Part shown: positions 27,144 through 53,900 of the stretch, one piece after another | Numbering within the stretch: position 1 is the first letter of the stretch | How the letters are laid out: each line of letters opens with the position of its first letter | Source: Erigeron canadensis | Taxonomy: Eukaryota > Streptophyta > Magnoliopsida > Asterales > Asteraceae | Length of the DNA stretch: 64,000 nt | Assembly: GCF_010389155.1 (NCBI RefSeq) | Contig: NC_057762.1 | Location: 2,901,513-2,965,512 of the forward strand | Direction: 5' to 3' | Position numbers and translations under genes: made by a program | The notes under the pieces: model-generated | What the model saw: the letters and a program-made list of their open reading frames with translations, nothing else | Told to the model about the DNA's origin: nothing | Database searches by the model: none

Positions 27144-27146
27144 GAT

Positions 27147-27160
27147 TGGTATCAGAGCCG
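27147..27160 (+). promoter_or_regulatory. Primer-binding site, initiator tRNA-Met
   Basis: TGGTATCAGAGCCG begins three bases after the 5' LTR. It is the standard plant retrotransposon primer site, complementary to the 3' end of initiator tRNA-Met. Confidence 0.9.
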
Positions 27161-27390
27161 TGGTTATAGAGAATTAGGTGGTTGGCCTAGACTATAACCT
27201 AAGTACCCTCATATAGTGTACATTATAGGAACTATTTGTGCATCGTATATGTGTGAGTACTTTCATTAGATAGCACTAGTTATGTGAGCCTTATATTTGC
27301 GTTTAATTGCTAATTATGATGAAGCCTTATGTGCTTAGATTAGTGCAAAGTTTCAGCCTGTAATTTTAACGTAGCTAGTTTTACTTAGTC

Positions 27391-27816
27391 ATGGCACGTA
27401 CAAAGAAAACAGCCCGTAAGAGTTCCGCATGGAGGGACATAATCATCCGTCGACAACTTAAAAGGGACGTCGCAGCTAACAAGGAAACCCCCGCTCAAGA
27501 ACCATCTCAGAAGCCTAGAGTTTCCTCTGAAAGCGAACCGTCAGAAGATCCTAACTACTACTCCAAGACAGTTATAATCATCGATTCTGACAGCGAGCCG
27601 GAGGAAGAATCGGACTATGATTCTAAGGCAGACTCCGAAAGCGTTCATAAGGGAAAGACAATGGAGGCTACGATAAAGGACAACAGAAGCTATAGTCCTA
27701 CTAGCTCAGTAAGCTCTCAAGAGAGCCGGGTCGGACCAACACGACAACAAGCTTCTTATCCTCCCACCATTTCCTCCAACTCCCCTTATGACGCCACTTG
27801 CACGTGGGAGGGCTAG
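27391..27816 (+). CDS. Extra pre-gag ORF with histone H3 tail-like N-terminus (copy 1)
   Basis: An intact 141-codon frame between the primer-binding site and gag, identical in protein to the frame at 42679-43104, where the full description is given. Being intact in the error-rich copy does not count as independent evidence, because this part of copy 1 lies outside the low-quality zone. Confidence 0.6.
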   Translation: MARTKKTARKSSAWRDIIIRRQLKRDVAANKETPAQEPSQKPRVSSESEPSEDPNYYSKTVIIIDSDSEPEEESDYDSKADSESVHKGKTMEATIKDNRSYSPTSSVSSQESRVGPTRQQASYPPTISSNSPYDATCTWEG

Positions 27817-28277
27817 CCTTTAAGGACTATCTAGGAATCCTATCGAACTTGCATTAGCTTCTTTTTTTCTTACTTTCTTAGTTTTGGATTTTATTCTTAT
27901 GTCTTGGATTCCTTCTTTCGAATTGGAAATTTCTTGGATTTATAAATTTTTTTTTTTTAGATTGATTGATTAATCGAAATGTCGTGCTTGGTATATGGAT
28001 CTATGTGTTTTGTGGCAATTATTTATGAAGGATGTGCTGAATTTGTGATATGTGAATTTGGACGATAAAAACGTGTGTGGTGGGATGTAGTTGTAATTAC
28101 GGTGCGCAACGTAATTACAAATACATCACAACACACATGCGCTTATATGACCAAGTTTGCTGATCAAACTCAACACAATTAACAAATTGGACAAGGTGTA
28201 AGAATTTTGCCATGAGTAGTAGTTATTCATTGAAAGTCTTCATCAAGTACTTATAAATCCTTTCTCTTGTGTAGAAA
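27817..28277 (+). other. Spacer between the extra ORF and gag, copy 1
   Basis: 461 bases without a coding frame. T-rich at first, it then carries a long stem-loop (28073-28138) and a shorter GTTTGCTGATCAAAC inverted repeat shortly after it. Gag starts at the ATG at 28278. Confidence 0.6.
28073..28138 (+). ncRNA. Predicted RNA stem-loop upstream of gag (copy 1)
   Basis: Left arm 28073-28101 and right arm 28110-28138 pair at 25 of 29 positions around an 8-base loop, GTGCGCAA. The ten loop-proximal pairs (TTGTAATTACG side) are uninterrupted. Copy 2 has the same structure at 43361-43426. The role is unknown; packaging signal, translation control or a source of small RNA are possibilities. Confidence 0.6.
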
Positions 28278-31200: not shown

Positions 31201-33006
31201 TATGCCTCTCGGCAACTCAAAATCCATGAGAAAAACTACACCACCCATGACTTGGAGCTTGGTGCAGTGGTTTTTGCACTCAAATGTTGGAGGCACTATC
31301 TCTATGGGACGAAAAGTGTGATCTACACCGATCACAAGAGTCTCCAACATATTTTCGATCAAAAAGAGTTGAATATGCGACAGAGGCGGTGGATTGAATT
31401 ATTAGTGACTATGATTGTGAGATTCGTTACCATCCGGGTAAGGCGAATGTTGTGGCTGACGCGTTAAGTAGGAAGAAAGAATTAAGTCAAAGCAAGTACG
31501 AGCATTGATCATGACAATTCATTCGGATATAAAATCAATGATAAGTCGGGCTCAAGATGAAGCATTGCAGAATATCAATGTAGAAAAAGAAGGGTTACGT
31601 GACCTTGATCAGCAAATGGAGCGTAAAGAGGATGGAGTACTGTACTTTGTAGGACGAATATGGATTCCACTTGCAGGTGGATTAAGAACAGTGATTTTGG
31701 ACGAGGCACATAGTACGAGATACTCCGTACACCCGGGAGCTGATAAAATGTATCACGACCTTAAGGATTTGTATTGGTGGCCGAGAATGAAAAGAGATAT
31801 AGCCAGTTATGTCAGTGGATGCTTAACATGTCTAAAAGTCAAAGCTGAACATAATAAACCACCGGGTTTATTAGTGCAACCACAACTTCCGAATGGAAAT
31901 GGGAAAGAATAACCATGGATTTTATTACAAAGCTGCCAAGAATAGTAGTGGGCATGACAAGATTTGGGTGATAGTAGATAGATTGACAAAGTCTGCGCAC
32001 TTTATAGCTATCCGTGAGAGCTACACAATGGAGCAGTTAGCAAGGATTTATATAAAGGAGATAGTGGCAAAGCATGGAATTCCGGTGTCTATTATATCTG
32101 ATCGTGATAGTCATTTCACATCACGATTTTGGCAGTCATTGCAAAAGGCATTGGGAACAGTTTAGAGACCTGAGTACGGCTTACCATCCTCAAACCGATG
32201 GACAAAGTGAGCGTACTATTCAGACTTTGGAAGATATGCTTAGGGCGTGTGTGATGGACTTTGGGGGAGCTGGGATATTCACCTTCCTCTAGTTGAGTTC
32301 TCGTACAATAATAGTTATCATTCAAGTATTAAGTGTGCTCCATTTGAAGCTTTATATGGGCGGAAATGTCGCTCACCTGTTGTTTGGGCTGAGATTGGAG
32401 AAAGTCAGTTGATTGGCCCGGAGATTGTACAAGAGACACAGATAGGATTTTTCAAATCAAAGAAAGACTGAAAGCAGCTAGAGACCGCCAAAAGAGCTAC
32501 GCCGACAAACGGCGAAGGCCTTTAGAATTCTATGTTGGTGATAAAGTGTTACTTAAAGTGTCGCCTTGGAAGGGCATGGTTCGATTTGGAAAGAAAGGAA
32601 AGTTGGCACCAAGGTACGTTGGACCGTTTGAAATTGTTGAACGGATTGGTCCGGTAGCTTATCGTTTAAGACTACCTCAAGAACTAAGTAGGATACATGA
32701 TACATTCCACGTGTCAAATCTCAAGAAGTGTCTCGCGGATACAAGTTTGCATGTACCGCTAGACGACATTAAGATTGATGACAAGTTACATTTTGTGGAA
32801 GAACCAGTTGAGATCATGGATCGAGAACTTAAGACATTAAACGTAGTAAAATTCCAATTGTCAAGGTCCGGTGGAATTCAAAACGAGGGCCAGAGTTTAC
32901 TTGGGAGCGAGAGGATCAAATGAAAATCAAATATCCACATCTATTTGATGCTACGACTTCCAACCGTAACTCCAACAAAATTTCGAGACGAAATTTTCTC
33001 AAGTAG
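28278..33006 (+). pseudogene. gag-pol, Ty3 copy 1, multiply frameshifted
   Basis: The same gag, protease, reverse transcriptase, RNase H, integrase and chromodomain order as in copy 2, but split into many short frames. Single-base losses are visible relative to copy 2 near 28901, 29864, 30595, 31083, 31405, 31472, 31892, 31943, 32265, 32436 and 32837, with a local scramble near 32157. Almost all are deletions in runs of A, C, G or T. The remaining bases are essentially identical. This pattern suggests uncorrected sequencing error near a contig end rather than evolutionary decay. The protease-to-RT frame difference near 29895-29950 is shared with copy 2, and so is not explained by this. Confidence 0.88.
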
Positions 33007-33013
33007 GGGAGAC

Positions 33014-35633
33014 TGTGACATCCGTCAACAAAACTGGTAATTTATTATAGTCTCTAACTTACATTCCAAATTTCTTGACTAGTCAATGTGCCTATATAGT
33101 ATAACAAGCATAGAAATGTGGTGATCATTTCCAATATGGGATCTCTATTACTTGATATTCAATAGTTTAGGATTGAGATATTTGATCTTCCTAAACGTAG
33201 ATGACTATAACTATCCCCGTAATTTCTAGACTTGTAGTTGTTAGTCATATTTATTTATAGACATTGATAATTAGTATACGCTATTTAGTGGAACGAAATC
33301 AATAATTATAAAAGTAATATATAATTAGTATAAGTCGTAAGATGGTAATAGTAATAGTAAAATATCATATGTTTAGTAAAAAATTTAGTCATATATATAT
33401 TACCACAATTTAATGGTGAGCAAGGAATTTTAATTCCATTAGAATTCTTATGATACATTAAGTCTAATCATAAACTAACTAAAACACTATCATATATATA
33501 TAATAAGATATACCCTAAACAAAAAAAAAAAAAAAAATATACCTATCTTGATTCCTCCTGCCGTCGAACATCATCAAACAAAACACCATCACAATCTATT
33601 TTTTTTTTATCACTCAATCTCAAAAAAAATCATCTTAAGGAGTTCTTGGATTTTGGTAAGTTTAATTATAATTCTATTGAATCTTGATTTATTACAATAA
33701 TAAAAAATTCTTAAATTATATTCTATTCTTCTTTTCAGGTGTCTAAGAAGAATCATCAATCTTGGGGTAAAATCACTTCTTCTTTTTCATATATATTAGT
33801 CTTTTTAATATTAATATATATATATATTATAAGCATATTTTTTTTTATTATTTTATTTATAAGTAACCTATTTGATGAATATATATTATGGCAATTTATA
33901 ATAATGAATGAAAGGGTTTTTTTTTTAGGGTTAAATCAAAAGCTTGAATAATAATCATATTAATGTTAAAGTTTAAGTATTCATGAAGCATAATAATTAA
34001 TGTAATAAAAGAAATCCAATTATGAAGGCATGAAAATCATAATAACAGATTTAATTAGGTGTTGGAAAGATTTGAAATTTATTATATATATTAGTTGTAG
34101 TAGTCTTTAAAACAGTTTGTTTGGGTTATTTCAGAATCTGGACAGATTCATTTTGTTAACTTTGAAAGGTCGTATCTTGGTCATGGGAGATGGTTAAGTC
34201 ACGTTTTTGGTGTCTAAAATTAAGTTCAGGAAGTCTACTTTCTGGTGGAAGTGGTTTCGTGTCAAAATAAGTTAAGGTTGTCAAACGAATTTTATAACAA
34301 ACTGCGCAAAGCTGAGTTTTCCGAACAGATTTTGGTCGACTTCAAATAGTCATATCTTGGTCGATTTTATGAACTGGACAATTATTTTTCTCCAGAAACG
34401 TTTTTGAGATGTTAAGATTGTACAGTAAAAAATTGGATTTTTTTGAAGCTTCGAAGGCCCTTAACTTTTATAAAACTTTTCTGTGCGCAAACAGTGATTT
34501 TTCTGACTAGTCTGTAATCATTGAATTTTTAAAAATAGTTAACGTGCCAAATAAATTATAAAAAATTCATGTAAGTATATAACACTCTAAGGTAACAGTA
34601 GTTAAGATTTGGAATCTTGAATCATTCGTTTCATCCTAATAAAAAAATAGATAAAGTTACCAAAAATTTCAGTTAATATGAACTTGTAGAATTTAATCTT
34701 AAATCAGTAAACAAAATATATTAAGTTGTGACTTGTAACTTAATAATATATGACAAATCAATTGTGAATATTTTGAAAGTAGCCATATGTGTATTTCATC
34801 AAATACGGGTTACAATGGACAGTTCTTGACCATGTCCATAATTGTAACTTGTTCATATTTATATGTTGTGTAGATTCTAGCGACTTGTTGAATTGCATAC
34901 TACTTGCTTGTTGAGGTGAGTTTCGTGGCCCCTTTTTATTTTATTTTTTGGGGAAAATGATGCTCAAAACACTTTTCATTTCTTTAGTAGTGTGCCAAAC
35001 TTTTTGTTTTCTGGACAAATACGTGTAATTATGAAATGTGTATGCTAGCTTGTTGTGTTGATTCCATGATGCAATAGATGTCTGTTGATATCTATTGAAG
35101 ACTATTTGATATCTATCGACCAACTATATACTACAGCTGGTAGTTGTTGGTATTTAAAGCATGATTGAGTTGTTGGCAGGAGTGATGGGGATTGTGTTGT
35201 TGGATAACTATGATGACATTGATTACTATTTGTTGCATACAATGCTACATGTTTATTTTTACACTATTGTCCAAACCTCATATATCATGCACAACAAATT
35301 CATTTGAATTCCTTTAAACCTACGAACTCACCAACATTATGTTGACATTTTCGAGCATTCATTTTCAGGTAATAACAATGTTTAAGAATTGAGCTTATGG
35401 ACTTTAGGAAGACCAATAAAGATCCTTCATGGACTCCTAGATTGCATGTGAAACATTGAACGCTATTTGCAGTTATTACTTCTTTGCTATTTGAGGCGTG
35501 TTGCCTAGACCTTCCGTTTATGGAATTTACATTTATTTGAATTTCATTTAGTATGACTCTATTATAAAGTCCATGTGCCTTTGCTATATCTTTTAGTCAT
35601 ATCCTACGATTCCGCCTAAGGTGGGGTGTGACA
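33014..35633 (+). repeat. 3' LTR, Ty3 copy 1
   Basis: About 2620 bp, some 60 bp shorter than the other three LTR copies because of many scattered one- to few-base deletions. It starts TGTGACATCC after the purine-rich AAGTAGGGGAGAC and ends GTGTGACA. Confidence 0.9.
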
Positions 35634-36404
35634 CCCGGTTAAACTATTTTTAGAAACATTATGATGTGCATGTCGACAAATTTTTCAAATGTTTTTTATT
35701 TATTTATGATGTCATATCTAATTAATAAACTGTTAAAGATAATAACCCATTAAATATTTTCAAATGTTTTATTTTATCTATGATGTCTACAATTTATTCT
35801 TTAGTAGAAAACAAAATAATACTTTTTTATATAATATCATAAATGTCTTTTTATGTTTATTAATGCAATAGGTACTAATATATATAATTATTGTGTTGAT
35901 CAATTTAATATTTCAGCCGAGTTATATAATCAACTAGATTTTAGACCCGTGTCCGACACTGGACACGGGTTACGATTTATCAATATAGATCTTCATAATT
36001 TAATTCATAAAAACTTATAATTTGGAAGATATATGGTTCTAAGTGATATACTTGCAAATTGTAGTACAATAACCACATATTCGTCACAGTCATTATTAGC
36101 TAATACACATTGATGAATGTGTTAATAGTCATTCCACAAGGCACATGCTATAATAATTTCTCTATTATATAAATTTTGAAACCAATTGTACTCATAAGTG
36201 ATATTAGTATGAAAGATTAATTAATTAAATATAACATACTTGATCCCGTATTTGACATTCAAGTATACGTGTTTGATCATGATACGACCCATAACATGAA
36301 TATGTTTATTTTCAACCACTGTCCAATGATAATAGATAACAATTATGATTGTTTCATATTGTTTGATAACAATTAATGACTTTGTGATTTGAGTGGCAAT
36401 TGTA
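35634..36404. other. Right flank of Ty3 copy 1 up to the gap
   Basis: Matches 50995-51795 with many small deletions. It contains a short perfect hairpin, ACCCGTGTCC...GGACACGGGT (35945-35970). No gene is seen, and the sequence stops at the N gap. Confidence 0.7.
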
Positions 36405-36504: not shown

Positions 36505-39500
36505 AATTTACTAAAAAGAAAAGGTCATAGTTCCAAAACGGATCATGTGTTGCTATCCTAATATGATGGATTTATTAATTTTTCTTGTCACATTGTATTT
36601 TATTTATAAAACAATTATACTTGAAGTTGATAGATTACTAAACCATTTATAAGCTGTAATAATTCCCAATTATGCATTTTAAGAACAGCAATTTAATGGT
36701 TGCACATCTTATTATCTTTAACTTGATCACGGCTTCACACTTTTAAATCTCTGAATATAGCAAAGCTACATGCTGCACAGTATGTTTCTTAGGTGCTGTA
36801 AAAACTAAAATTATTTAAAAACATTTTTTTAAGTACAAAGTTTTATCATGTATACATTGTCGATCGCTCTATCTCAATCATGCTCTATCAGCATCATCAA
36901 GCTAATTAGCAGTTGACTACAACACAATCATATTATATATATATTAGGTAAATGTGATTTTCGGTAACTTTTATTTTACAATCTTAAAGAGATCGATGTG
37001 GTTTTTTCTTGAAGGCTACATCCATATATTTTCTTCTTTTTTTTTTTTTTATATATATATATTTTTTTTAATTTTGAAAAGTGCTGCACTACTACAGTAC
37101 TACACTACTACTCGAAAAAACCAGACGTTTGAAGTCCTAAAAAAGTGAAAACAAATTGTAAAAAACACTAAAAGGGAGAAGCCCAATAATAGTTCATGAC
37201 GAACATCAAATTTACCTAAGCAATGCTGCCATGCTGGACTACTTGCAAACTGCAAAATAAAGTCTATAAAGCCCAACTAGGCCCATACTTTATTTAATCA
37301 ATCATATCATAGTATGAGGGTTTGTGTTGATTTTTCTAGTGACTATTGTATTTTATTTATACGAATAATTGATAGACTAATACGAAACCGTTTATAAGCT
37401 TTTAATAACACCTAATTATGCAATTTCAAGAACAAACAATTCAATGGTAGCTCTTTATTGAATCGTCAACTTAGGTCTCTTCACACGTATCAATAAACAA
37501 CCCATAACTCTTTGAACATCATTTTTTCTACAACTTTTACTATAAACAAACAAATAGCTCATCGATAATCTATCAACATTTTGATCAAAATGATACATAT
37601 TATATCATTATTGGGCAAGCTTACGAAACATGAGATTATTTGACAAAAGTATACTTGAAGTTGAAGCTAATAAAATAAAAAATTGATTGAATTATTTGGG
37701 CCATGGGAGTGTGACTAGTGCAAAGTAAGGTCTAAAAGCCCAAACGTAAGTATATCTTTTCTTTTATTTTTGTTGTATATGTTTTAGATGAAATTAAATA
37801 CTGTAATAAATGTATATACAAAATTTGAATAATTGGAGTAGCGATATCAGCTATGTGTAATTGGTGGGAATGTATAATTGTATAAGTGCAATATTTAATT
37901 GTACTATGTGCTTTATTCATTTGTACTTTTTTTTTTTAATGTTTGTGTCATGGAACGGCTAGTTGTTACATCCATACGGGCAGACGGTCACTAGCGACCG
38001 ATCCACGAAGTTAGGGACCACAGGGGAGGGGAAACCCACCAATTTAACCACTACAGACTAACAGAAGGCACGATGTTAAATTGGAGGTAAAACCTCACTT
38101 GCTCAGACTCAGACCCTGGTTACCCAGGATCCAAACATCATTGCAGGATTTCGAAATGCCACTGGGTTTGTACAATTTATCAAATGAATATGAAGTGTTG
38201 GTTAAGTTATAGGGATAAAAGCAATTAAAGGATTCCCTTTCTGATATTTAGCTTCATAATAGAGAAGGATATATTCATATATACTTACCACTAAGTTCAA
38301 ACATATATGAGATTAAACTTTAATTTATTCTTGTGCTCAATATTTGGCTTTTGTTTCTCTATAAGTTTAAAACTATCCATGTATACAAAAAGTTAGTTAC
38401 CTTTGAAATATAAAGTTTGTTTCTATACGTAATCTAACTTGTTTAGAATGAAACCTAGAACTTCTAAAAAGATTCCCATCCTCCTTAGTAAGAAGTCTCA
38501 AACTCGGTGGAAAATCTCAAAGTATATGATCTATTCTTACTGATTAGCCACCATTTAACAGTCTCACTATACTACTTTAGACCGGTCACAAATTTCTACT
38601 ACGAACCCATTTTAACCATCAATGTTTAACATCACAAAACAAGCCTCAACATTCGATCACAAATTGCAAGACGTTAAGCAATTTTGGCGTTAAAAAAAAA
38701 AAAAAAGACAAGCAATTAACATCATTTTATTGCTTTCAAACACAATCGTATATACTATTGCATCCTTCCCTAACTTACTTCACCAAGAACATTCGAAGCA
38801 TTTAAGAAAAACTAACGTCTAACAATATATCTTTGGGAATCATTGAATCAATTATAGATTGCTAATGAGTAATGAGTAACACCACACAATATCTAAGTTA
38901 AAACTATTTAAATAGCTCGACATTTGATGTCATGAAAGAAGATGATTTTAATGAGATCTTAGTGAAATTAAGCACAATCACTTAGATCAGAGGTCACTTT
39001 AGCAACCGGTTAGTACGTAGCAAAGTCAAGATTTTAGATTTGTGGTAGCAAAAAAATTTAGACAATATTAACGAGTGTATAATAGAGCTAAGTTAGTGTA
39101 TGAGATTCAAGTTTTTGTTTTGTCGTGTGAGAATTAACTTTGAACTATACTAATTCATTAAAATAACATTACATATATCGAGTTTTATAAATAGTGTAAA
39201 AGCGTCACGGTTGCTAGAGGTTTATATTCTTACATTATAGATTTGGAGTATGTTTAGTAAAAATAGCTGGAGCTGAAAATGGGGGCTCAAGCTGGAATTA
39301 AGAGCTAGAGCTGTAAAATTAAAGCTTCCAATTGTATAAATCTGTTTGGCAAACTAGTTATAAGTTGTGGCTAAAAAACGTAAAATTACAATACTAGGCA
39401 TAAAATTTCCTTTAGAAAAAAAATGCATAATACAAGCAAAATTGATATAACAAAAGGGAATTGATCTGTACACCACCAAACATGTTATATAGTATTGTAC

Positions 39501-39753
39501 TAATATTTTTTCTTAAAAAGTCTTTATTTTAATTATGATGTCATAAATAATTTACATTAATTTTAATTAAAATAGCTCACTAAATACTTATTTAAAGTTC
39601 TTAATCTTTTATTACAAACAAAGAAATATTTTTTATAATTATATGTTATTCAATTCATCAACTCCATATCGATTTATAATATATTAATAACAAAAATTAC
39701 ATGCATATTTTATAGTTTTATAATTTTAATTAAAACGCCCGGTTTGAACCGGG
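36505..39753. other. Non-coding left flank of Ty3 copy 2
   Basis: Repeats unit B and the SINE-like insert already described for 21171-24463. No gene is seen. It ends in the hairpin CCCGGTTTGAACCGGG, whose last five bases form the target duplication of the Ty3 element. Confidence 0.7.
37927..38166 (-). mobile_element. SINE-like retroposon, minus strand (duplicate)
   Basis: The same insert as at 22629-22869, flanked by TTTGTAC at 37920-37926 and 38167-38173. Confidence 0.6.
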
Positions 39754-42430
39754 TGTGACATCCGTCAACAAAACTGGTAATTTATTATAGTCTCTAACTT
39801 ACATTCCAAATTTCTTGACTAGTCAATGTGCCTATATAGTATAACAAGCATAGAAATGTGGTGATCATTTCCAATATGGGATCTCTATTACTTGATATTC
39901 AATAGTTTAGGATTGAGATATTTGATCTTCCTAAACGTAGATGACTATAACTATCCCCGTAATTTCTAGACTTGTAGTTGTTAGTCATATTTATTTATAG
40001 ACATTGATAAATTAGTATACGCTATTTAGTGGTGAACGAAATCAATAATTATAAAAGTAATATATAATTAGTATAAGTCGTAAGATGGTAATAGTAATAG
40101 TAAAATATCATATGTTTAGTAAAAAATTTTAGTCATATATATATTACCACAATTTAATGGTGAGCAAGGAATTTTAATTCCATTAGAATTCTTATGATAC
40201 ATTAAGTCTAATCATAAACTAACTAAAACACTTATCACATATATATAAATAATGACTATACCCTAAACAAAAAAAAAAAAAAAAATATAACCTATCTTTG
40301 ATTCCTCCTGCCGTCGAACATCATCAAACAAAACACCATCACAAATCTATTTTTTTTTTATCACTCAATTCTCAAAAAAAATCATCTTAAGGAGTTCTTG
40401 GATTTTGGTAAGTTTAATTATAATTCTATTGAATCTTGATTTAAATTACAATTAATAATAAAATTCTTAAAGATTATATTCTATTCTTCTTTTCAAGGTG
40501 TCTAAGAAGAAGATCATCAATCTTGGGGTAAAATCACTTGTCTTCTCTTTTCATATATATTAGTCTTTTTAATTATTAATATATATATATATATATAAGC
40601 ATATTTTTTTTTATTAATTTTTATTTATAAGTAACCTATTTGATGAATATATATTATGGCAAATTTATAATAATGAATGAAAGGGTTTTTTTTTTTAGGG
40701 TTAAATCAAAAGCTTGAATAATAAATCATATTAATGTTAAAAGTTTAAGTATTCAATGAAGCATAATAATTAATGTAATAAAAGAAATCCAATTATGAAG
40801 GCATGAAAATCATAATAACAGATTTAATTAGGTGTTGGAAAGATTTGAAATTTTATATATAAATATTAGTTGTAGTAGTCTTTAAAACAGTTTGTTTGGG
40901 TTATTTCAGAATCTGGACAGATTCATTTGTTAACTTTGAGAGGTCGTATCTTGGTCATGGGAGATGGTTAAGTCACGTTTTTGGTGTCTAAAATTAAGTT
41001 CAGGAAGTCTACTTTCTGGTGGAAGTGGTTTCGTGTCAAAATATGAAGTTTAAGGTTGTCAAACGAATTTTATAACAAAACTGCGCAAAGCTGAGTTTTC
41101 CGAACAGATTTTGGTCGACTTCAAATAGTCATATCTTGGTCGATTTTATGAACTGGAAATTATTTTTCTCCAGAAACGTTTTTGAGATGTTAAGATTGTA
41201 CAGTAAAAAATTGGATTTTTTGAAGCTTCGAAGGCCCTTAACTTTTATAAAACTTTTCTGTGCGCAAACAGTGATTTTTCTGACTAGTCTGTAATCATTG
41301 AATTTTTAAAAATAGTTAACGTGCCAAATAAATTATAAAAAATTCATGTAAGTATATAACACTCTAAGGTAACAGTAGTTAAGATTTGGAATCTTGAATC
41401 ATTCGTTTCATCCTAATAAAAAATAGATAAAGTTACCAAAAATTTCAGTTAATATGAACTTGTAGAATTTAATCTTAAATCAGTAAAACAAATATTATAT
41501 ATTAAGTTATGTGACTTGTAACTTAATAATATATGACAAATCAATTGTGAATATTTTGAAAGTAGCCATATGTGTATTTCATCAAATACGGGTTACAATG
41601 GACAGTTCTTGACCATGTCCATAATTGTAACTTGTTCATATTTATATGTTGTGTAGATTCTAGCGACCTTGTTGGAATTGCATAACTACTTGCTTGTTGA
41701 GGTGAGTTTCGTGGCCCCTTTTTATTTTATTTGTTTGGGGAAAATGATGCTCAAAACACTTTTCATTTCTTTAGTAGTTGTGCCAAACTTTTGTTTTCTT
41801 GGACAAATACGTGTAATTATGAAATGTGTATGCTAGCTTGTTTGTGTTGATTCCATGATGCAATAGATGTCTGTTGATATCTATTGAAGACTATTTGATA
41901 TCTATCGACCAACTATATACTACAGCTGGTAGTTGTTGGTATTTAAAGCATGATTGAGTTGTTGGCAGGAGTGATGGGGATTGTGTTGTTGGATAACTAT
42001 GATGACATTGATTACTATTTGGATTGCATACAAGCTGCTACATGTTTATTTTTACACTATTGTCCAAACCTCATATATCATGCACAACAAATTCATTTGA
42101 ATTCCTTTAAACCTACGAACTCACCAACATTATGTTGACATTTTCGAGCATTCATTTTCAGGTAATAACAATGTTTAAGAAGATTGAGCTTATGGACTTT
42201 AGGAAGACCAATAAAGAGATCCTTCATGGACTCCTAGATTGCATGTGAAACATTGAACGCTATTTGCAGTTATTACTTCTTTGCTATTTGAGGCGTGTTG
42301 CCTAGACCTTCCGTTTATGGAATTTACATTTATTTGAATTTCATTTAGTATGACTCTATTATAAAGTCCATGTGCCTTTGCTATATCTTTTAGTCATATC
42401 CTACGATTCCGCCTAAGGTGGGGTGTGACA
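39754..42430 (+). repeat. 5' LTR, Ty3 copy 2
   Basis: 2677 bp with TGTGACATCC and GGGTGTGACA ends. It contains several homopolymer runs that vary by a base or two among the four LTR copies, and an internal 62-codon frame (41950-42138) that recurs only because the LTRs are identical. Confidence 0.93.
40238..40250 (+). promoter_or_regulatory. Candidate LTR TATA element
   Basis: CATATATATAAAT lies about 485 bases into the LTR. It is followed after about 20 bases by an A-run and a CT-rich stretch that could hold the transcript start and the beginning of R. A GGTAAGT donor-like site and a TTTTCAAG acceptor-like site follow downstream. No transcript evidence is available. Confidence 0.4.
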
Positions 42431-42433
42431 GAT

Positions 42434-42447
42434 TGGTATCAGAGCCG
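42434..42447 (+). promoter_or_regulatory. Primer-binding site, initiator tRNA-Met (copy 2)
   Basis: TGGTATCAGAGCCG starts three bases after the LTR terminus, as in copy 1. Confidence 0.9.
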
Positions 42448-42678
42448 TGGTTATAGAGAATTAGGTGGTTTGGCCTAGACTATAACCTAAGTACCCTCAT
42501 ATAGTGTACATTATAGGAACTATTTGTGCATCGTATATGTGTGAGTACTTTCATTAGATAGCACTAGTTATGTGAGCCTTATATTTGCGTTTAATTGCTA
42601 ATTATGATGAAGCCTTATGTGCTTAGATTAGTGCAAAGTTTCAGCCTGTAATTTTAACGTAGCTAGTTTTACTTAGTC

Positions 42679-43104
42679 ATGGCACGTACAAAGAAAACAG
42701 CCCGTAAGAGTTCCGCATGGAGGGACATAATCATCCGTCGACAACTTAAAAGGGACGTCGCAGCTAACAAGGAAACCCCCGCTCAAGAACCATCTCAGAA
42801 GCCTAGAGTTTCCTCTGAAAGCGAACCGTCAGAAGATCCTAACTACTACTCCAAGACAGTTATAATCATCGATTCTGACAGCGAGCCGGAGGAAGAATCG
42901 GACTATGATTCTAAGGCAGACTCCGAAAGCGTTCATAAGGGAAAGACAATGGAGGCTACGATAAAGGACAACAGAAGCTATAGTCCTACTAGCTCAGTAA
43001 GCTCTCAAGAGAGCCGGGTCGGACCAACACGACAACAAGCTTCTTATCCTCCCACCATTTCCTCCAACTCCCCTTATGACGCCACTTGCACGTGGGAGGG
43101 CTAG
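42679..43104 (+). CDS. Extra pre-gag ORF: histone H3 tail-like N-terminus plus SIM-like motif
   Basis: 141 codons, intact, upstream of gag on the same strand; I recognise no Ty3 family protein. Residues 1-11 are MARTKKTARKS, one difference from histone H3 (Q5 to K in mature numbering). With a two-residue and then a three-residue offset, RRQL (20-23) lines up with H3 RKQL, and AANKETP (28-34) with H3 AARKSAP. Lysines thus occupy the places of H3 K4, K9 and K27. Residues 61-69, VIIIDSDSE, look like a SUMO-interaction motif with an acidic/serine flank continuing to about residue 83, rich in potential CK2 sites. The rest is Ser/Pro-rich and probably disordered. No histone fold is present, so it is not a histone gene. 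It could be an H3-derived capture or convergent mimicry. Whether it is translated is unknown. Confidence 0.6.
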   Translation: MARTKKTARKSSAWRDIIIRRQLKRDVAANKETPAQEPSQKPRVSSESEPSEDPNYYSKTVIIIDSDSEPEEESDYDSKADSESVHKGKTMEATIKDNRSYSPTSSVSSQESRVGPTRQQASYPPTISSNSPYDATCTWEG

Positions 43105-43566
43105 CCTTTAAGGACTATCTAGGAATCCTATCGAACTTGCATTAGCTTCTTTTTTTCTTACTTTCTTAGTTTTGGATTTTATTCTTATGTCTTGGATTCC
43201 TTCTTTCGAATTTGGAAATTTCTTGGATTTATAAATTTTTTTTTTTAGATTGATTGATTAATCGAAATGTCGTGCTTGGTATATGGATCTATGTGTTTTG
43301 TGGCAATTATTTATGAAGGATGTGCTGAATTTGTGACATGTGAATTTGGACGATAAAAACGTGTGTGGTGGGATGTAGTTGTAATTACGGTGCGCAACGT
43401 AATTACAAATACATCACAACACACATGCGCTTATATGACCAAGTTTGCTGATCAAACTCAACACAATTAACAAATTGGACAAGGTGTAAGAATTTTGCCA
43501 TGAGTAGTAGTTATTCATTGAAAGTCTTCATCAAGTACTTATAAATCCTTTCTCTTTGTGTAGAAA
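43105..43566 (+). other. Spacer between the extra ORF and gag, copy 2
   Basis: 462 bases without a coding frame, holding the stem-loop at 43361-43426. A ribosome scanning from the 5' end would meet the extra ORF first, so gag needs re-initiation, internal entry or splicing around the first ORF. Confidence 0.6.
43361..43426 (+). ncRNA. Predicted RNA stem-loop upstream of gag (copy 2)
   Basis: Arms 43361-43389 and 43398-43426 are identical to those in copy 1, with 25 of 29 positions paired around the loop GTGCGCAA. It is about 140 bases upstream of the gag ATG. Confidence 0.6.
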
Positions 43567-45243
43567 ATGAATAGAGGAGGAAGAAATGGAGGACGTGGAG
43601 GTAGAGGTGGTGGACGTGGTGGAAATAATGGGGTTAATGATGGAGAAGGTGATGGTGGCAATCCGGATATTGCAAACATGATCACTCAGCAAATAGCTGC
43701 CGCTATTCCTACTATTGTTACTCAAGTGACCGCTGCTGTTCTTAATGCCAACAACAATAACCCTAATAATAATAACAATAATGAGAATAACAATAACAAC
43801 AATGAGAACAACAATAACAATAATGAGAACAATAATAACAATAATGAAAATAACAATGATGGTAATCAGAATAACAACATCATTGGAGGCAATAATAATG
43901 GATGCACCTATAGGGAGTTTCAATATTGTAAACCACCAGATTTTGATGGCAAGGGAGGAGCATTGGCAGCCACTAGATGGATAGAGAAAATGGAAGCTGT
44001 CATGGATATTAGCAACTGTGCAGAGAATCAAAAGGTGAAGTATGCCGCAGCTTCACTGACTAATAAAGCATTGACATGGTGGAACACTGAGATACAAGCT
44101 AGGGGTAGAGTAGCAGCTGTGGGGATGACATGGGACGAGTTTAAGGAATTACTACTGGAAGAATTCTGTCCGAAAAATGAAATGCAAAAGTTGGAAAATG
44201 AATTTTGGAATCATTCAATGGTAGGAGCCAAACATGCCGCTTACACTGATCGGTTTTATGAGCTTGCCAAACTAGTACCTCATCTAGTTAGACCTGAATC
44301 AAATAGGATCCAGAGGTATATCTATGGTCTTGTTCCCCAAATTCGTGGGCTTGTGTCAGCAACTGAGCCAACCACGATTCAAAGTGCTATTCAGAAAGCA
44401 GGTTCTTTAACGGATGAAATGGTGAGAAATGGGTCATTGTCTAAGGTTAATGAGAAAAGGAAGGATGGTACTGAGACAAGTGGGTCAAAGAATACTAATG
44501 GAAATAACAAGAAGGCAAAAATGGCAACGGGGTTGATGGCAACGGATGCGACTAAGATCGGATATACGGGTACTGCTCCAAAGTGTACAAAATGTCAATT
44601 CCATCATTTCCAAAATTCACCTTGCCGTTTGTGTACAAACTGCAACCGATTTGGACACCTTGCTAGGGACTGTCGAGTGGGAGTCAAGCAGGTGGCTCCG
44701 GTGAATGCTGTTAACCCGATAAATAACCGTGGAACGTGCTATGAGTGCGGTAGTCATAACCATTACCGCAACACGTGTCCAAATTTGAACCGAGCATGGG
44801 GTCAGAGGGGTAATAATCCAAATCAAGTACTAGCTATTGGTGGAACTCAGAATCAAGGAAATAATCAGGGACAAAGAGCTAACAATCAGAATCAAGTGGT
44901 AGCTAATGGAGGGAATCGGAATCAAGGGAATAATGCCAACCAAGCCCGTGGTAGAGCTTTTGTCATGGTAGCAAATGAAGCTCGTCAAGATCCAAATATT
45001 GTGACGGGTACGTTTTCCTTAAACAATCACCTTGCTACAGTATTATTCGACTCTGGTGCTGAGTACAGTTTTGTTTCTATTAAGTTCATGCCACTCCTAG
45101 ATAGAGAACCCATAATATTGAATACTTATTTCTTGGTTGAGGTAGCTAATGGAAAATTTGATAGAGTTGATAGAATCGTTAATGATTGTACCTTAGAAAT
45201 AGAAGGTCATTGTTTAGTGTTAACCTTCTGCCTTTCTCGTTAA
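43567..45243 (+). CDS. gag: Ty3 Gag and aspartic protease
   Basis: 558 codons from the ATG at 43567. The N-terminus is an RGG-rich tract (residues about 3-20), then a helical-looking stretch, then an asparagine-rich tract with repeated NNNNNNE units (about 60-105). The retrotransposon Gag capsid domain covers about 115-260 ([21 protein letters not shown]). Zinc-binding Cys/His sequences follow at about 339-400 ([23 protein letters not shown] and [14 protein letters not shown]), then a Gln/Asn/Gly-rich linker. The protease active site is D495-S-G-A, in [12 protein letters not shown]. The frame ends at 45241-45243, shortly before the protease C-terminus is complete, and the continuation is in the -1 frame. 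Gag packages element RNA in cytoplasmic particles and the protease matures the polyprotein. Confidence 0.9.
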
Positions 45244-48200
45244 GGAGTTTTGACGTAGTTATTGGTATGGATTGGCTATCGAAGCATAGAGCCGAGATAA
45301 TTTGCTATGAGAAGGTGGTCCGTATACCGCTAGGAAATAGTGAAATGCTACTCATATACGGGGAGCGGGTGGAGGAAAATCAGAAGCACCTCATGGGCAT
45401 TCAGGCTAACGAGAAGAAACTCGAAAATATTCCTATCGTACGGGTTTTTCCACAAGTTTTTCCCGAAGATCTAACAGGATTACCTCCTGTAAGACAAGTT
45501 GAATTCCGTATAGATCTTATTCCGGGAGCGACGCCAGTCGCCAAAGCTCCATACCGTTTAGCACCTACCGAAATGCAAGAACTGTCTAATCAACTCCAAG
45601 AGCTCCAAGAAAAAGGCTTCATCAGACCTAGTCATTCGCCTTGGGGAGCACCAGTATTGTTTGTCAAGAAGAAAGATGGTTCGTTTCGTATGTGCATCGA
45701 TTACCGGGAGTTGAACAAACTGACAGTTAAGAATCGTTACCCTCTTCCTAGAATCGACGACTTATTCGATCAACTTCAAGGTGCGAAGTTTTTCTCGAAA
45801 ATAGACCTTCGGTCCGGATATCATCAACTCAGAGTTAATGAAGCAGATATTCCAAAAACAGCATTCAGGACTCGATATGGACATTTTGAGTTCTTAGTCA
45901 TGCCTTTCGGTTTGACTAATGCACCCGCAGTTTTCATGGATTTGATGAACCGTGTATGCAAACCCTATCTCGATAAGTTTGTTATTGTATTCATTGATGA
46001 CATTTTAATCTATTCGAAGTCTAAGGAAGAACATGAATCTCACTTGAAAATGATTCTTGAACTACTTTGGAAAGAGAGATTGTTTGCTAAGTTTTCGAAG
46101 TGCGACTTTTGGTTACAAGAAGTTCATTTCCTTGGGCATGTAGTGAATAGTGAAGGAATCCATGTTGACCCCAGTAAGATCGAAGCAGTAAAAGATTGGA
46201 AGACTCCTACGACGCCATCAGAGGTTCGTTCATTTCTAGGCTTGGCCGGGTATTATCGACGATTCATCGCTAACTTCTCGAAAATCGCTCAACCACTTAC
46301 TCAGTTAACCCAAAAGGATAAGAAGTTTGATTGGGGAGATAAGCAAGAAAAGGCATTCCAAACACTGAAAGAAAATCTATGTAACGCTCCTATTCTTACC
46401 CTCCCCGATGGTCCGGACGATTTTGTAGTTTATTGTGATGCTTCAAATCAAGGCTTGGGATGTGTACTAATGCAAAGGGGTAAAGTGATTGCTTATGCCT
46501 CTCGGCAACTCAAAATCCATGAGAAAAACTACACCACCCATGACTTGGAGCTTGGTGCAGTGGTTTTTGCACTCAAATGTTGGAGGCACTATCTCTATGG
46601 GACGAAAAGTGTGATCTACACCGATCACAAGAGTCTCCAACATATTTTCGATCAAAAAGAGTTGAATATGCGACAGAGGCGGTGGATTGAATTATTTAGT
46701 GACTATGATTGTGAGATTCGTTACCATCCGGGTAAGGCGAATGTTGTGGCTGACGCGTTAAGTAGGAAAGAAAGAATTAAGTCAAAGCAAGTACGAGCAT
46801 TGATCATGACAATTCATTCGGATATAAAATCAATGATAAGTCGGGCTCAAGATGAAGCATTGCAGAATATCAATGTAGAAAAAGAAGGGTTACGTGACCT
46901 TGATCAGCAAATGGAGCGTAAAGAGGATGGAGTACTGTACTTTGTAGGACGAATATGGATTCCACTTGCAGGTGGATTAAGAACAGTGATTTTGGACGAG
47001 GCACATAGTACGAGATACTCCGTACACCCGGGAGCTGATAAAATGTATCACGACCTTAAGGATTTGTATTGGTGGCCGAGAATGAAAAGAGATATAGCCA
47101 GTTATGTCAGTGGATGCTTAACATGTCTAAAAGTCAAAGCTGAACATAATAAACCACCGGGTTTATTAGTGCAACCACAACTTCCCGAATGGAAATGGGA
47201 AAGAATAACCATGGATTTTATTACAAAGCTGCCAAGAACTAGTAGTGGGCATGACAAGATTTGGGTGATAGTAGATAGATTGACAAAGTCTGCGCACTTT
47301 ATAGCTATCCGTGAGAGCTACACAATGGAGCAGTTAGCAAGGATTTATATAAAGGAGATAGTGGCAAAGCATGGAATTCCGGTGTCTATTATATCTGATC
47401 GTGATAGTCATTTCACATCACGATTTTGGCAGTCATTGCAAAAGGCATTGGGAACACGTTTAGACCTGAGTACGGCTTACCATCCTCAAACCGATGGACA
47501 AAGTGAGCGTACTATTCAGACTTTGGAAGATATGCTTAGGGCGTGTGTGATGGACTTTGGGGGAAGCTGGGATATTCACCTTCCTCTAGTTGAGTTCTCG
47601 TACAATAATAGTTATCATTCAAGTATTAAGTGTGCTCCATTTGAAGCTTTATATGGGCGGAAATGTCGCTCACCTGTTGTTTGGGCTGAGATTGGAGAAA
47701 GTCAGTTGATTGGCCCGGAGATTGTACAAGAGACAACAGATAGGATTTTTCAAATCAAAGAAAGACTGAAAGCAGCTAGAGACCGCCAAAAGAGCTACGC
47801 CGACAAACGGCGAAGGCCTTTAGAATTCTATGTTGGTGATAAAGTGTTACTTAAAGTGTCGCCTTGGAAGGGCATGGTTCGATTTGGAAAGAAAGGAAAG
47901 TTGGCACCAAGGTACGTTGGACCGTTTGAAATTGTTGAACGGATTGGTCCGGTAGCTTATCGTTTAAGACTACCTCAAGAACTAAGTAGGATACATGATA
48001 CATTCCACGTGTCAAATCTCAAGAAGTGTCTCGCGGATACAAGTTTGCATGTACCGCTAGACGACATTAAGATTGATGACAAGTTACATTTTGTGGAAGA
48101 ACCAGTTGAGATCATGGATCGAGAACTTAAGACATTAAAACGTAGTAAAATTCCAATTGTCAAGGTCCGGTGGAATTCAAAACGAGGGCCAGAGTTTACT

Positions 48201-48305
48201 TGGGAGCGAGAGGATCAAATGAAAATCAAATATCCACATCTATTTGATGCTACGACTTCCAACCGTAACTCCAACAAAATTTCGAGACGAAATTTTCTCA
48301 AGTAG
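45186..48305 (+). CDS. pol: Ty3 Pol: RT, RNase H, integrase, chromodomain-like tail
   Basis: An open frame of 1039 codons, overlapping the gag-protease frame by 58 bases in the -1 phase. It opens right after an in-frame TGA (45183-45185) and has no natural ATG at its start, so it must be reached by frameshift from gag or be a broken continuation. Domains: the end of protease ([11 protein letters not shown], about 23-33), reverse transcriptase (about 120-290, catalytic F269-I-D-D272), RNase H ([10 protein letters not shown] onward, about 415-520), an integrase HHCC zinc region (about 610-660), and an integrase DDE core (about 685-830, with [25 protein letters not shown]). Then come a GPY/F-like module ([18 protein letters not shown], about 908-925) and a chromodomain-like tail (about 980-1020, FTWEREDQM). 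The latter suggests targeting of integration to modified histones, as known for chromoviruses. Confidence 0.92.
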
Positions 48306-48312
48306 GGGAGAC
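48297..48312 (+). promoter_or_regulatory. Purine-rich tract before the 3' LTR
   Basis: TCAAGTAGGGGAGAC directly precedes the TGTGACA of the 3' LTR and overlaps the pol stop codon. It is the probable plus-strand primer site, though a T interrupts the purine run. Confidence 0.6.
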
Positions 48313-50994
48313 TGTGACATCCGTCAACAAAACTGGTAATTTATTATAGTCTCTAACTTACATTCCAAATTTCTTGACTAGTCAATGTGCCTATATAGTA
48401 TAACAAGCATAGAAATGTGGTGATCATTTCCAATATGGGATCTCTATTACTTGATATTCAATAGTTTAGGATTGAGATATTTGATCTTCCTAAACGTAGA
48501 TGACTATAACTATCCCCGTAATTTCTAGACTTGTAGTTGTTAGTCATATTTATTTATAGACATTGATAAATTAGTATACGCTATTTAGTGGTGAACGAAA
48601 TCAATAATTATAAAAGTAATATATAATTAGTATAAGTCGTAAGATGGTAATAGTAATAGTAAAATATCATATGTTTAGTAAAAAATTTTAGTCATATATA
48701 TATTACCACAATTTAATGGTGAGCAAGGAATTTTAATTCCATTAGAATTCTTATGATACATTAAGTCTAATCATAAACTAACTAAAACACTTATCACATA
48801 TATATATAAATAATGACTATACCCTAAACAAAAAAAAAAAAAAAAATATAACCTATCTTTGATTCCTCCTGCCGTCGAACATCATCAAACAAAACACCAT
48901 CACAAATCTATTTTTTTTTTATCACTCAATTCTCAAAAAAAATCATCTTAAGGAGTTCTTGGATTTTGGTAAGTTTAATTATAATTCTATTGAATCTTGA
49001 TTTAAATTACAATTAATAATAAAATTCTTAAAGATTATATTCTATTCTTCTTTTCAAGGTGTCTAAGAAGAAGATCATCAATCTTGGGGTAAAATCACTT
49101 GTCTTCTCTTTTCATATATATTAGTCTTTTTAATTATTAATATATATATATATATAAGCATATTTTTTTTTATTAATTTTTATTTATAAGTAACCTATTT
49201 GATGAATATATATTATGGCAAATTTATAATAATGAATGAAAGGGTTTTTTTTTTAGGGTTAAATCAAAAGCTTGAATAATAAATCATATTAATGTTAAAA
49301 GTTTAAGTATTCAATGAAGCATAATAATTAATGTAATAAAAGAAATCCAATTATGAAGGCATGAAAATCATAATAACAGATTTAATTAGGTGTTGGAAAG
49401 ATTTGAAATTTATATATAAATATTAGTTGTAGTAGTCTTTAAAACAGTTTGTTTGGGTTATTTCAGAATCTGGACAGATTCATTTTGTTAACTTTGAGAG
49501 GTCGTATCTTGGTCATGGGAGATGGTTAAGTCACGTTTTTGGTGTCTAAAATTAAGTTCAGGAAGTCTACTTTCTGGTGGAAGTGGTTTCGTGTCAAAAT
49601 ATGAAGTTTAAGGTTGTCAAACGAATTTTATAACAAAACTGCGCAAAGCTGAGTTTTCCGAACAGATTTTGGTCGACTTCAAATAGTCATATCTTGGTCG
49701 ATTTTATGAACTGGAAAATTATTTTTCTCCAGAAACGTTTTTGAGATGTTAAGATTGTACAGTAAAAAAATTGGATTTTTTTGAAGCTTCGAAGGCCCTT
49801 AACTTTTATAAAACTTTTCTGTGCGCAAACAGTGATTTTTCTGACTAGTCTGTAATCATTGAATTTTTAAAAATAGTTAACGTGCCAAATAAATTATAAA
49901 AAAATTCATGTAAGTATATAACACTCTAAGGTAACAGTAGTTAAGATTTGGAATCTTGAATCATTCGTTTCATCCTAATAAAAAAATAGATAAAGTTACC
50001 AAAAATTTCAGTTAATATGAACTTGTAGAATTTAATCTTAAATCAGTAAAACAAATATTATATATTAAGTTATGTGACTTGTAACTTAATAATATATGAC
50101 AAATCAATTGTGAATATTTTGAAAGTAGCCATATGTGTATTTCATCAAATACGGGTTACAATGGACAGTTCTTGACCATGTCCATAATTGTAACTTGTTC
50201 ATATTTATATGTTGTGTAGATTCTAGCGACCTTGTTGGAATTGCATAACTACTTGCTTGTTGAGGTGAGTTTCGTGGCCCCTTTTATTTTATTTGTTTGG
50301 GGGAAAATGATGCTCAAAACACTTTTCATTTCTTTAGTAGTTGTGCCAAACTTTTTGTTTTCTTGGACAAATACGTGTAATTATGAAATGTGTATGCTAG
50401 CTTGTTTGTGTTGATTCCATGATGCAATAGATGTCTGTTGATATCTATTGAAGACTATTTGATATCTATCGACCAACTATATACTACAGCTGGTAGTTGT
50501 TGGTATTTAAAGCATGATTGAGTTGTTGGCAGGAGTGATGGGGATTGTGTTGTTGGATAACTATGATGACATTGATTACTATTTGGATTGCATACAAGCT
50601 GCTACATGTTTATTTTTACACTATTGTCCAAACCTCATATATCATGCACAACAAATTCATTTGAATTCCTTTAAACCTACGAACTCACCAACATTATGTT
50701 GACATTTTCGAGCATTCATTTTCAGGTAATAACAATGTTTAAGAAGATTGAGCTTATGGACTTTAGGAAGACCAATAAAGAGATCCTTCATGGACTCCTA
50801 GATTGCATGTGAAACATTGAACGCTATTTGCAGTTATTACTTCTTTGCTATTTGAGGCGTGTTGCCTAGACCTTCCGTTTATGGAATTTACATTTATTTG
50901 AATTTCATTTAGTATGACTCTATTATAAAGTCCATGTGCCTTTGCTATATCTTTTAGTCATATCCTACGATTCCGCCTAAGGTGGGGTGTGACA
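48313..50994 (+). repeat. 3' LTR, Ty3 copy 2
   Basis: 2682 bp, nearly identical to the 5' LTR at 39754-42430. Differences are mainly homopolymer or TA-run lengths. It is followed by the target duplication CCGGG. Confidence 0.93.
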
Positions 50995-50999
50995 CCGGG

Positions 51000-53900
51000 T
51001 TAAACTATTTTTAGAAACAATTATGATGTGGCATGTCTACAAATTTTTTCAAAATGTTTTTATTTTATTTATGATGTCATATCTAATTAATAAAATTTTA
51101 AAGATAAATAACCCATTAAATATTTTCAAAATGTTTTATTTTATCTATGATGTCTACAAATTTATTCTTTTAGTAGAAAACAAAATAAATACTTTTTTAT
51201 ATAATATCATAAATGTCTTTTTATGTTTTATTAATGCAATAGGTACTAATATATATAATTATTGTGTTGATCAATTTAATATCTTCAAGCCGAGTTATAA
51301 TATATCAACTAGATTTTAGACCCGTGTCCGACACTGGACACGGGGTTTACGATATTATCAATATTAGATCTTCATACATTTAATTCATAAAAACTTATAA
51401 TTTGGAAGATATATGGTTCTAAGTGATATACTTTGCAAATTGTAGTACAATAACCACATATTCGTCACAGTCATTATTAGCTAATACACATTGATGAAAT
51501 GTTTGTAATAGTCATTCCACAAGGCACATGCTATAATAATTTCTCTATTATATAAATTTTTGAAACCAATTGTACTCATAATGTGATATTAGTATGAAAG
51601 ATTATTATTAATTAAAATATAAACATACTTGTGATCCCGTATTTGACATTCAAGTATACGTGTTTGATCATGATACGACCCATAACATGAATATGTTTAT
51701 TTTCAACCACTGTCCAATGATAATTAGATAACAATTATGATTGTTTCATATTGTTTGATAACAATTATGACTTTTGATTTGAGTGGCAATTGTAACTTTA
51801 AAAAATTAAATAAAATACTTTTTGTAACGTTTTTAAAAAATTTAAGAAAAAATTCTCAGATTGATGGCTAAAAATAAATATAATTTAAGTATTTAGGATT
51901 AAAAAATATAAATTATTGATGGAAAACAAAAAAAGTATAAATTAATGAGACTTATACTACAAATTAATATAAATTCCAATATAATATATTTGGATAATGA
52001 TTATTAGGATTTCTAATTTATAGTTAATCTAAATGATGACATAAGCGAGAGTCAATTTGATACAATTGAGCGATTTGATTGGTTAATAAGTCATTAGTTC
52101 AATTGTCTTATAGTATATATTAAGATTAAGATTAAGATTAAGATTAAGATTAAGATTAAGATTAAAATTAAAATTATACAATTACTACTAAAATCTTAAT
52201 ATATATGATAGAACACATTATTGGATATATATTAGCTATTATTTTATTGGATAAATATTAGCTCTTATTTTATCGGATATATATAAGCTATTATTATTTA
52301 TTTATTATATTAAAACTATTGGGTAAAAAGTGTAAATTTTTGATGAAAAACAAAAAAGTGTAAATTAAAGTCAAAATTGAAAAAAAAGTCAACATTAAGA
52401 AATCGAGAGCTGTGATTGGTCGATAAGTTATTAGAGCAACTGTGCTTTAGTATAATAAAAGATAACAAAAGTTATATAAATTTTTTTAGATTTGTATTGC
52501 TTTTAAAATTTTATTAAAAATGCTCGGGTTAAAGCCGGACTGATTAACTAGTTTACATATTAAAATTTCTTTTAAAACAGATTTATTTATAAAAAATAAA
52601 ATAAACAGATTAGCTTTTATAGATGGGAAGAAAACAAATGAATCATAGGTATTATTTTCTTTTTTTAATTTCTTTTGTGTCATCAATTAAGTTAAGATAA
52701 TCCAAATATTTAAAATTTAGGTTTTATTAACTTGCAAGAAAAATTTGAGTTATTTTCTCGGTTATCTTATGATGATAAGTGCAAAAATATATTTTTTATT
52801 AGTATAATAATAATACTAATATGAAATAAGAATAGAATTAAAAGAGTAATGAAAGTTGCAACCATATAGCCATAAAATTGCTATGCAATTATTGTAGGGT
52901 GTGAGTATTACTATCATGTTTAATTCTTCAACTTGTCGTGTTGAACAAAGCGGGCTTCGAACGTGACAGAAGTTTTTGAAGGTATCTGAGTAATTTTCAT
53001 GGTTAGGAGTTAGGGCTTTTTTTTGTTGAAAGCTTCTTCTATGAGCTTCTTTTTATAAGTGTTTTTGGTTTTTTTTTTTTTTTTTGAAATTTAAAAGCCC
53101 AAGCCTTAACTTCCAAACAAGGTTACTCTTTTTGTTGAAGAGTTTTTTTTTTCTAAAGCTCCATCTCCTAGCTTCTAAAAAGCCCCTAGAAAGCCTTTGC
53201 CAAATATATACTTTATTTAGGACAAAAATATTTTGTGTGTTGTTAGGTTAATAGTTCACTGGTAAAGAAAAGTCCTTTCAATAAAGACTTGAATTTAGGA
53301 AGACTTAGACTTCGATTCTAAGAAGGCAAAGAGAGTTTTCCTTGTAATAGATATTGAATAAGAGACTCTAAAATATGAACGGATTAAAACAATATGGTTT
53401 AGACCCTGTTATGATATTTGATATACGGTTATAAAAAACAACAATATCTTTATGTATAGATAATCGAACAATATAAAGGGGTCATTTGTGTCACGATATA
53501 TAAAGGAAAAGTCGGCACGCACAACACACATCATGTTGAGTCAGGAATGAGTCATTTGGTTACGTAACGACAGATTCTAAAACTTTCAATGAGGGTGAGA
53601 GTTGTCAGTTGTCACTATCTCTGTATCCTTTCATATAATTATTGGAATGAATCTGATGAGATCAACATCCATCCATCCTTATTTACATGCTTAAATTTTT
53701 ATATTGAGAAAATATCTCTTATATGTATAGAGATTTCGATTAAAAATTTGTATAGCAAAAAGAGTAAGATTAATGTTAAAAATTCATAAGATATAATCCT
53801 AATACTGAGGCTATATATATTTGTATAATTATCAAACTATAGACTACATTCTTCTCACTAAGTGACGGATCTAAAAGTTTAAACGGTTAAGGACCAAGAA

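Follow-up and report, generated by a model that had tools for sequence, protein, structure and literature searches.

Between the 5' LTR and gag of a Ty3 retrotransposon in Erigeron canadensis lies an open reading frame whose predicted product begins almost exactly like histone H3, raising the question of whether a plant transposon encodes an imitation of the H3 tail or whether the resemblance arose by capture, composition or chance. We examined the ORF in the window, that is, the whole 64,000-nucleotide stretch of DNA that was analysed, in its own genome (426 Mb in 356 contigs) and among homologues from outside.

A young Ty3 element with an extra ORF ahead of gag

Two LTRs with a target-site duplication enclose gag, protease, RT, RNase H and integrase in Ty3 order (Table 1), identifying the element as a Ty3 LTR retrotransposon. 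Alignment of the 5' and 3' LTRs revealed 0 substitutions and 15 gap columns over 2687 aligned columns, and because the LTRs carry no substitutions we conclude that the element inserted very recently. LTR gaps lacking substitutions suggest indels in the assembly, and the frame breaks seen in young copies may partly be assembly artefacts. The sequence TGGTATCAGAGCC is the likely primer-binding site, presumably for initiator-Met tRNA. The lineage is probably that of the Tekay/Del chromoviruses, an assignment made from resemblance. Pfam reports no chromodomain at the integrase C-terminus up to E 10; by eye the tail resembles a type II chromodomain. The whole element sits in a 15.3-kb tandem duplication (21168–36404 versus 36505–51794; 98.7% alike, with 15 substitutions and 164 gap openings), and the second ORF copy, being half of this duplication, is no independent insertion and was therefore dropped as independent evidence. 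In the gag-pol overlap (45186–45243) the two genes lie in different frames in the window copy, while four other close copies have one open frame of 1579–1580 codons. Near its start (about 43750–43867), gag contains a long Asn/Glu-rich repeat stretch.

Table 1. Coordinates in the window of the element, its 5' ORF and the duplicate ORF
Feature	Position	Strand	Basis or remark
5' LTR	39754..42430	+	Alignment to 3' LTR; preceded by target-site duplication CCGGG at 39749–39753
Leader	42431..42678	+	Has five ATGs whose frames all close ahead of the ORF
Likely primer-binding site	42434..42446	+	Sequence
5' accessory ORF, 141 aa, without confidently predicted structure	42679..43104	+	Open frame; AlphaFold2
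H3-like start MARTKKTARKS	42679..42711	+	Sequence, pattern scans; start context TTAGTCATGG
C-terminal part of ORF product, from SYSPTSS	42976..43101	+	Recognisable in outside homologues
gag with zinc knuckles and protease start	43567..45243	+	Pfam Ty3_capsid 1.6e-15, RVP_2 4.6e-13
Protease end, RT, RNase H, integrase	45186..48305	+	Pfam; frame differs from gag in window copy
3' LTR	48313..50994	+	LTR alignment; followed by target-site duplication CCGGG at 50995–50999
Second ORF copy	27391..27816	+	Other half of the 15.3-kb tandem duplication

The ORF begins 248 nt past the end of the 5' LTR and lies 462 nt ahead of gag. A sequence-only reading had described it as an intact 141-codon frame between the primer-binding site and gag of a young Ty3 element, and ORF analysis, Pfam and the LTR alignment bear this out. 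Its start, MARTKKTARKS, matches the MARTKQTARKS of H3 at 10 of 11 positions, residue 6 alone differing, and the start context is unchanged in 7 of the 8 examined copies L061–L068, the eighth being altered at base +4 only. When the product was compared with solved structures using phmmer, the two best matches were H3-type N-termini, those of Cse4 and H3.Y, aligned start to start and weak (E 1 and 1.4). Pfam found no histone domain in the product up to E 10, and the conserved similarity to H3 stops at residue 11. A Pfam match to BLM_N (E 0.0015; 18.2 bits, where the cut-off is 27) was put down to composition. AlphaFold2 gave a mean pLDDT of 55 with 0 residues at 70 or above; the product is probably disordered, and low pLDDT throughout is what would be expected of a protein that displays a short motif.

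Distribution and origin of the H3-like start

Under uniform bases, a degenerate 30-nt pattern for the H3 start is expected by chance about 0.0002 times in the genome. With at most 1 mismatch it occurred at 52 places and its reverse at 0. A slightly wider pattern, with at most 2 mismatches, occurred at 56 places, made up of 37 in the element lineage of the ORF, which sit at coordinates of ORF relatives and include some that are not independent insertions, and 19 H3-type starts, 11 of which were translated and 8 classed by their matched bases alone. All 11 translated loci begin MARTKQTARKSTGGKAP. At 3 mismatches, 11 further places appeared, which we kept out of the argument, and the reversed pattern gave 13 matches with up to 3 mismatches. 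Two H3-like starts at 3 mismatches, C2:11342774 (MTRTKRSARKS) and C1:37895920 (MARTKKPTRI), possibly belong to an H3 variant or CENH3. Taken with the chance expectation, the scans reveal a specific tail match beyond chance, confirming the resemblance first noticed by eye.

In its own genome the ORF gave 56 match rows. Residues 1–141 are covered in 25 of them, a count that includes both window copies as halves of one duplication, and 22 of the 25 are stop-free. The start is exactly MARTKKTARKS in 20 of these 22, the remaining two carrying R9C and A8T. Among 30 copies compared over the first 33 bases, 26 are identical, 2 have one base changed and 2 are interrupted by a deletion. The frame is thus, as in Tekay 5'-aORFs, an extra sense ORF between the 5' LTR and gag that is retained in most copies of its group.

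Seven older starts, one each from L061 to L065 and two from L066, are in order MARTKKTARKS, MTRTKKTACKS, MARTKKTARKS, MARTKQTTRKS, MARIKQTACKS, MARTKQTSRKI and MARTTQTTHKS, so that Gln stands at residue 6, as in H3, in four of them (L064, L065 and both L066 ORFs). Where these seven starts depart from the young one, 10 of the 19 base changes are C-to-T or G-to-A if the young base is taken as original, as in decaying methylated copies. Past the start, the older frames diverge strongly in sequence and length. The further alignment proposed earlier, RRQL and AANKETP, is wholly or partly absent from older copies and outside homologues; K27/S28 mimicry was dropped for this reason, while the lysines corresponding to H3 K4 and K9 stand in register. 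L066 (C7:28250000-28259500) and L065 (C7:25372000-25380000) have ORF relatives on both strands within a short stretch, as if two old copies lay side by side in opposite orientation. No H3-like start was present in five stretches 5' of gag from related copies (pol 72–75% identical): L069, L071 and L072 have a recognisable primer-binding site but no stop-free run of 70 codons from there to gag, and L070 and L073 showed no primer-binding site upstream of gag.

A first single-sequence protein search with the ORF found no match, but alignment-based searches did reach homologues. A profile of the copies retrieved P0001 (E 2.5e-4) and P0002 (E 0.022) among 3138 candidates, and a second profile including both retrieved at least seven proteins at E up to 10 among 7980 candidates scored, adding P0003 (6.0e-20, near P0002) and P0004 (1.4e-19). 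P0001 (MVRTKFTARKS), P0002 (MARTKFTARKS) and P0003 (MARTKLTARKS) keep 9–10 of the 11 start residues, and beyond the start they match the window ORF at 36–39%. The C-terminal ends of P0002–P0004 are much like that of the window ORF despite strong divergence and length change. In P0003 an in-frame ATG lies 19 codons upstream of the H3-like start, and in P0004 the H3-like start is missing from the frame. P0005 (Tanacetum coccineum, E 0.078), with a gag-like tail and a start unlike H3, was rejected as support, as were P0006 (E 2.1) and P0007 (E 9.0), which look like acidic low-complexity matches. The scanned viral contigs and prokaryote genomes yielded no relatives. Loss of the ORF or of its first 11 residues from other copies, which the sequence-only reading had named as an outcome that would tell against it, was not what we saw, the start being recognisable in older subfamilies and in three outside homologues.

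In 8 of 12 pairwise comparisons, the pairs not being independent and the alignment being gap-rich, the first 12 columns were more alike than the remainder (one-sided Fisher p 0.0015 to 0.044), and 4 of 12 showed no excess. Within the start, residue 6, equivalent to H3 Q5, varies among K, Q, F and L, and its neighbours are nearly fixed. The side chain of H3 Q5 is left exposed by many readers.

The start might also have been captured from an H3 gene or mRNA, as had been suggested for this ORF. The Gln6 of the older copies fits this origin, as does an L066 copy whose first 20 bases are shared with one H3 gene start. However, when the element start was compared with 17 H3 gene starts (two mismatched ones being left out), the best identity was 26 of 30 bases, the figure that arises most often when codons for these residues are drawn at random. 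The Ser11 codon is AGT in the element copies retaining it and begins with TC in 18 of the 19 H3-type starts, and no DNA similarity to H3 genes was found past the start. The codon-level comparison thus gave no excess similarity, and the ORF has neither the histone domain nor the continuing H3 similarity at the DNA level of an H3 gene or retrocopy. We regard capture as the source of the start as highly improbable, although a very old event whose synonymous sites have since become saturated is conceivable. Compared with a recent capture, convergence or a capture so old that its traces have faded is the likelier origin.

Constraint on the frame and competing readings

Over the whole frame, pN/pS was 1.08 among 25 copies (16 distinct) and 1.30 pooled over all 25, where gag gave 0.27. 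Measured against older copies, with the young L009 as reference for the ORF and the window for gag and pol, pN/pS was 0.45–2.57 for ORF segments 12–98 and 99–141, 0.22–0.45 for gag (4 copies) and 0.12–0.19 for pol (3 copies). With the frame near 1 and gag and pol under constraint, the ORF product is therefore fast-evolving or little constrained. Within the first 11 codons, 10 of the 12 counted changes in older copies were nonsynonymous, a stretch of too few codons to judge. In five older copies the start differed at 7 of 165 positions and the leader at 106 of 1223 (p 0.029); after both L066 ORFs were added, the counts became 19 of 231 and 191 of 1686 (p 0.093). Most older copies are about 90% alike in the leader and in the stretches between ORFs. 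Neutral evolution with stops in most copies, the other outcome that had been named as damaging, was thus partly borne out, in that pN/pS is about 1, but most young copies are open.

These results suit a nonfunctional leader ORF kept by shared ancestry, with its first codons conserved because the copies are young or because of an RNA function, and its likeness to H3 due to chance. Besides the near-neutral pN/pS, ATGs lie upstream in the leader, the leader and inter-ORF stretches are themselves much alike, and the start has no clear edge in conservation over the leader. Against this stand the low chance expectation of the pattern and the stop-free state of most full-length rows, and among outside homologues the start in P0001–P0003 and the C-terminal end in P0002–P0004 survive strong divergence and length change; we consider a nonfunctional frame quite improbable. 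The likeness might instead follow from basic composition or shared importin recognition, the start serving as a nuclear-localisation or nucleic-acid-binding stretch. RTKKTARKS is basic, and H3 tails themselves function in nuclear import. The sunflower 5'-aORF protein, moreover, has a predicted NLS (PMC11728184). However, Ala2, Thr4, Thr7, Ala8 and Ser11 are mostly kept though a basic NLS needs none of them, and residue 6 shifts from K/Q to F/L, leaving this explanation fairly improbable.

The main rival is tethering, in which the H3-like N-terminus would anchor element complexes to chromatin readers of the host and influence where the element inserts, rather than disarm silencing. In sunflower, Tekay group 2, which has the 5'-aORF, lies mostly in chromosome arms, and groups 1 and 3, which do not, show a centromere bias (PMC11728184). 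In the present genome, 30 usable copies of the related group (pol 72–76% identical) lay nearer their own per-chromosome median than the 31 usable ORF-bearing copies did (0.063 versus 0.188 of chromosome length, p 2e-4), in a test that is biased by a centre set by the related group itself (leave-one-out) and by a group drawn from 44 of 7841 candidates, and that omitted small-contig copies and a few fragments and counted the tandem pair once. However, the distance to the nearer chromosome end did not differ between the groups (p 0.50), and in the related group five members were examined for the ORF. We know of no link between the ORF product and the integrase, and consider tethering unlikely.

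A candidate mimic of the H3 tail and its precedents

We therefore return to imitation of the H3 tail, which we advance as a hypothesis that the analysis has strengthened for the first 11 residues. The ORF would encode a small accessory protein, probably disordered, that imitates H3 residues 1–10 (ARTK-x-TARKS) at its N-terminus. Translation would begin at the ORF ATG, and removal of Met would then expose Ala1 as in H3. Host readers and modifying enzymes of the H3 tail near K4 and K9 might take the mimic as ligand or substrate, and the element would gain by titrating or diverting readers of K4me0 or K9me or writers of K9me, such as SHH1, ZMP, SUVH4-6 and CMT2/3. The product would then act like an anti-silencing protein, perhaps blunting H3K9/RNA-directed silencing. 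SHH1, of the Pol IV pathway, reads unmethylated H3K4 together with methylated H3K9, and ZMP, which is tied to Pol IV, binds unmethylated H3K4 (PMC7617993). Since both read this part of H3, an imitation of the H3 start has plausible targets.

Mimicry would be expected to leave a short motif fixed while the rest of a protein poor in predicted structure evolves fast; this is the pattern seen, though it does not prove mimicry. The clean form of the story is weakened by the near-neutral frame, by a start whose extra conservation over the leader is lost once the two oldest copies are included, and by the upstream ATG of P0003, as an H3-like stretch inside a protein would present no free N-terminus; P0004, for its part, has no H3-like start in its frame. 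On balance, functional H3-tail mimicry by the ORF product, taken in general, appears to us evenly poised. That a plant Ty3 lineage convergently evolved an accessory protein offering H3K9/RNA-directed silencing a decoy or substrate, in the form of a free H3 N-tail that is in register at K4 and K9, is a tentative proposal, and a specifically anti-silencing role of the product is more doubtful.

Compared with known systems, the window ORF has 10 of its first 11 residues in common with histone H3 and lacks a histone domain. VANC of VANDAL elements is an anti-silencing protein of a plant DNA transposon that acts on the DNA of its own family. Like VANC, the product of the window ORF would be an extra transposon protein that might counter host silencing; we know of no H3 mimicry by VANC. 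A closer parallel in motif is NS1 of influenza A (H3N2), with an H3 N-tail-like stretch reported to divert host machinery that recognises the H3 tail (Marazzi 2012, Qin 2014, as cited in PMC12937675). In both cases a short H3 N-tail-like stretch is encoded by a parasite. The stretch in NS1 lies in the C-terminal region, whereas that of the window ORF, which comes from a plant retrotransposon, is at the very N-terminus and corresponds to H3 1–10, its lysines in register with K4 and K9.

The sequence-only reading knew of no described Ty3 element with an H3-like ORF of this kind. Extra 5' ORFs of Tekay (Del) elements have been described as 5'-aORFs, for example in sunflower Tekay 13-2 (PMC11728184; see also PMC7264820), and as 5' forward eORFs in the REXdb survey (PMC6317226). 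These resemble the window ORF in lying in sense between leader and gag, in a mostly disordered product and in being present in one group but absent from its relatives (PMC11728184, PMC6317226); in contrast, the sunflower protein has about 400 aa and a C-terminal helix with a predicted NLS (PMC11728184). The REXdb survey, as described there, counted eORFs of at least 250 codons, so a 141-codon ORF would be missed (PMC6317226). The main text of PMC11728184 has 0 occurrences of 'histone' and of 'MARTK', and no H3-like transposon ORF was found in the literature searched, which comprised titles and abstract starts, with subscription papers and supplements outside its reach. An extra 5' ORF in Tekay is thus already known, and the H3-like start is the new part as far as that literature goes.

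The 10-residue H3-tail match at the predicted N-terminus offers a concrete, easily testable hypothesis for one Tekay 5' ORF. If the tail is bound or modified by silencing factors, the ORF would be a case of histone mimicry by a plant transposon and a form of counter-defence not seen in the literature searched. It would then also provide a natural probe for which H3-tail proteins matter to silencing.
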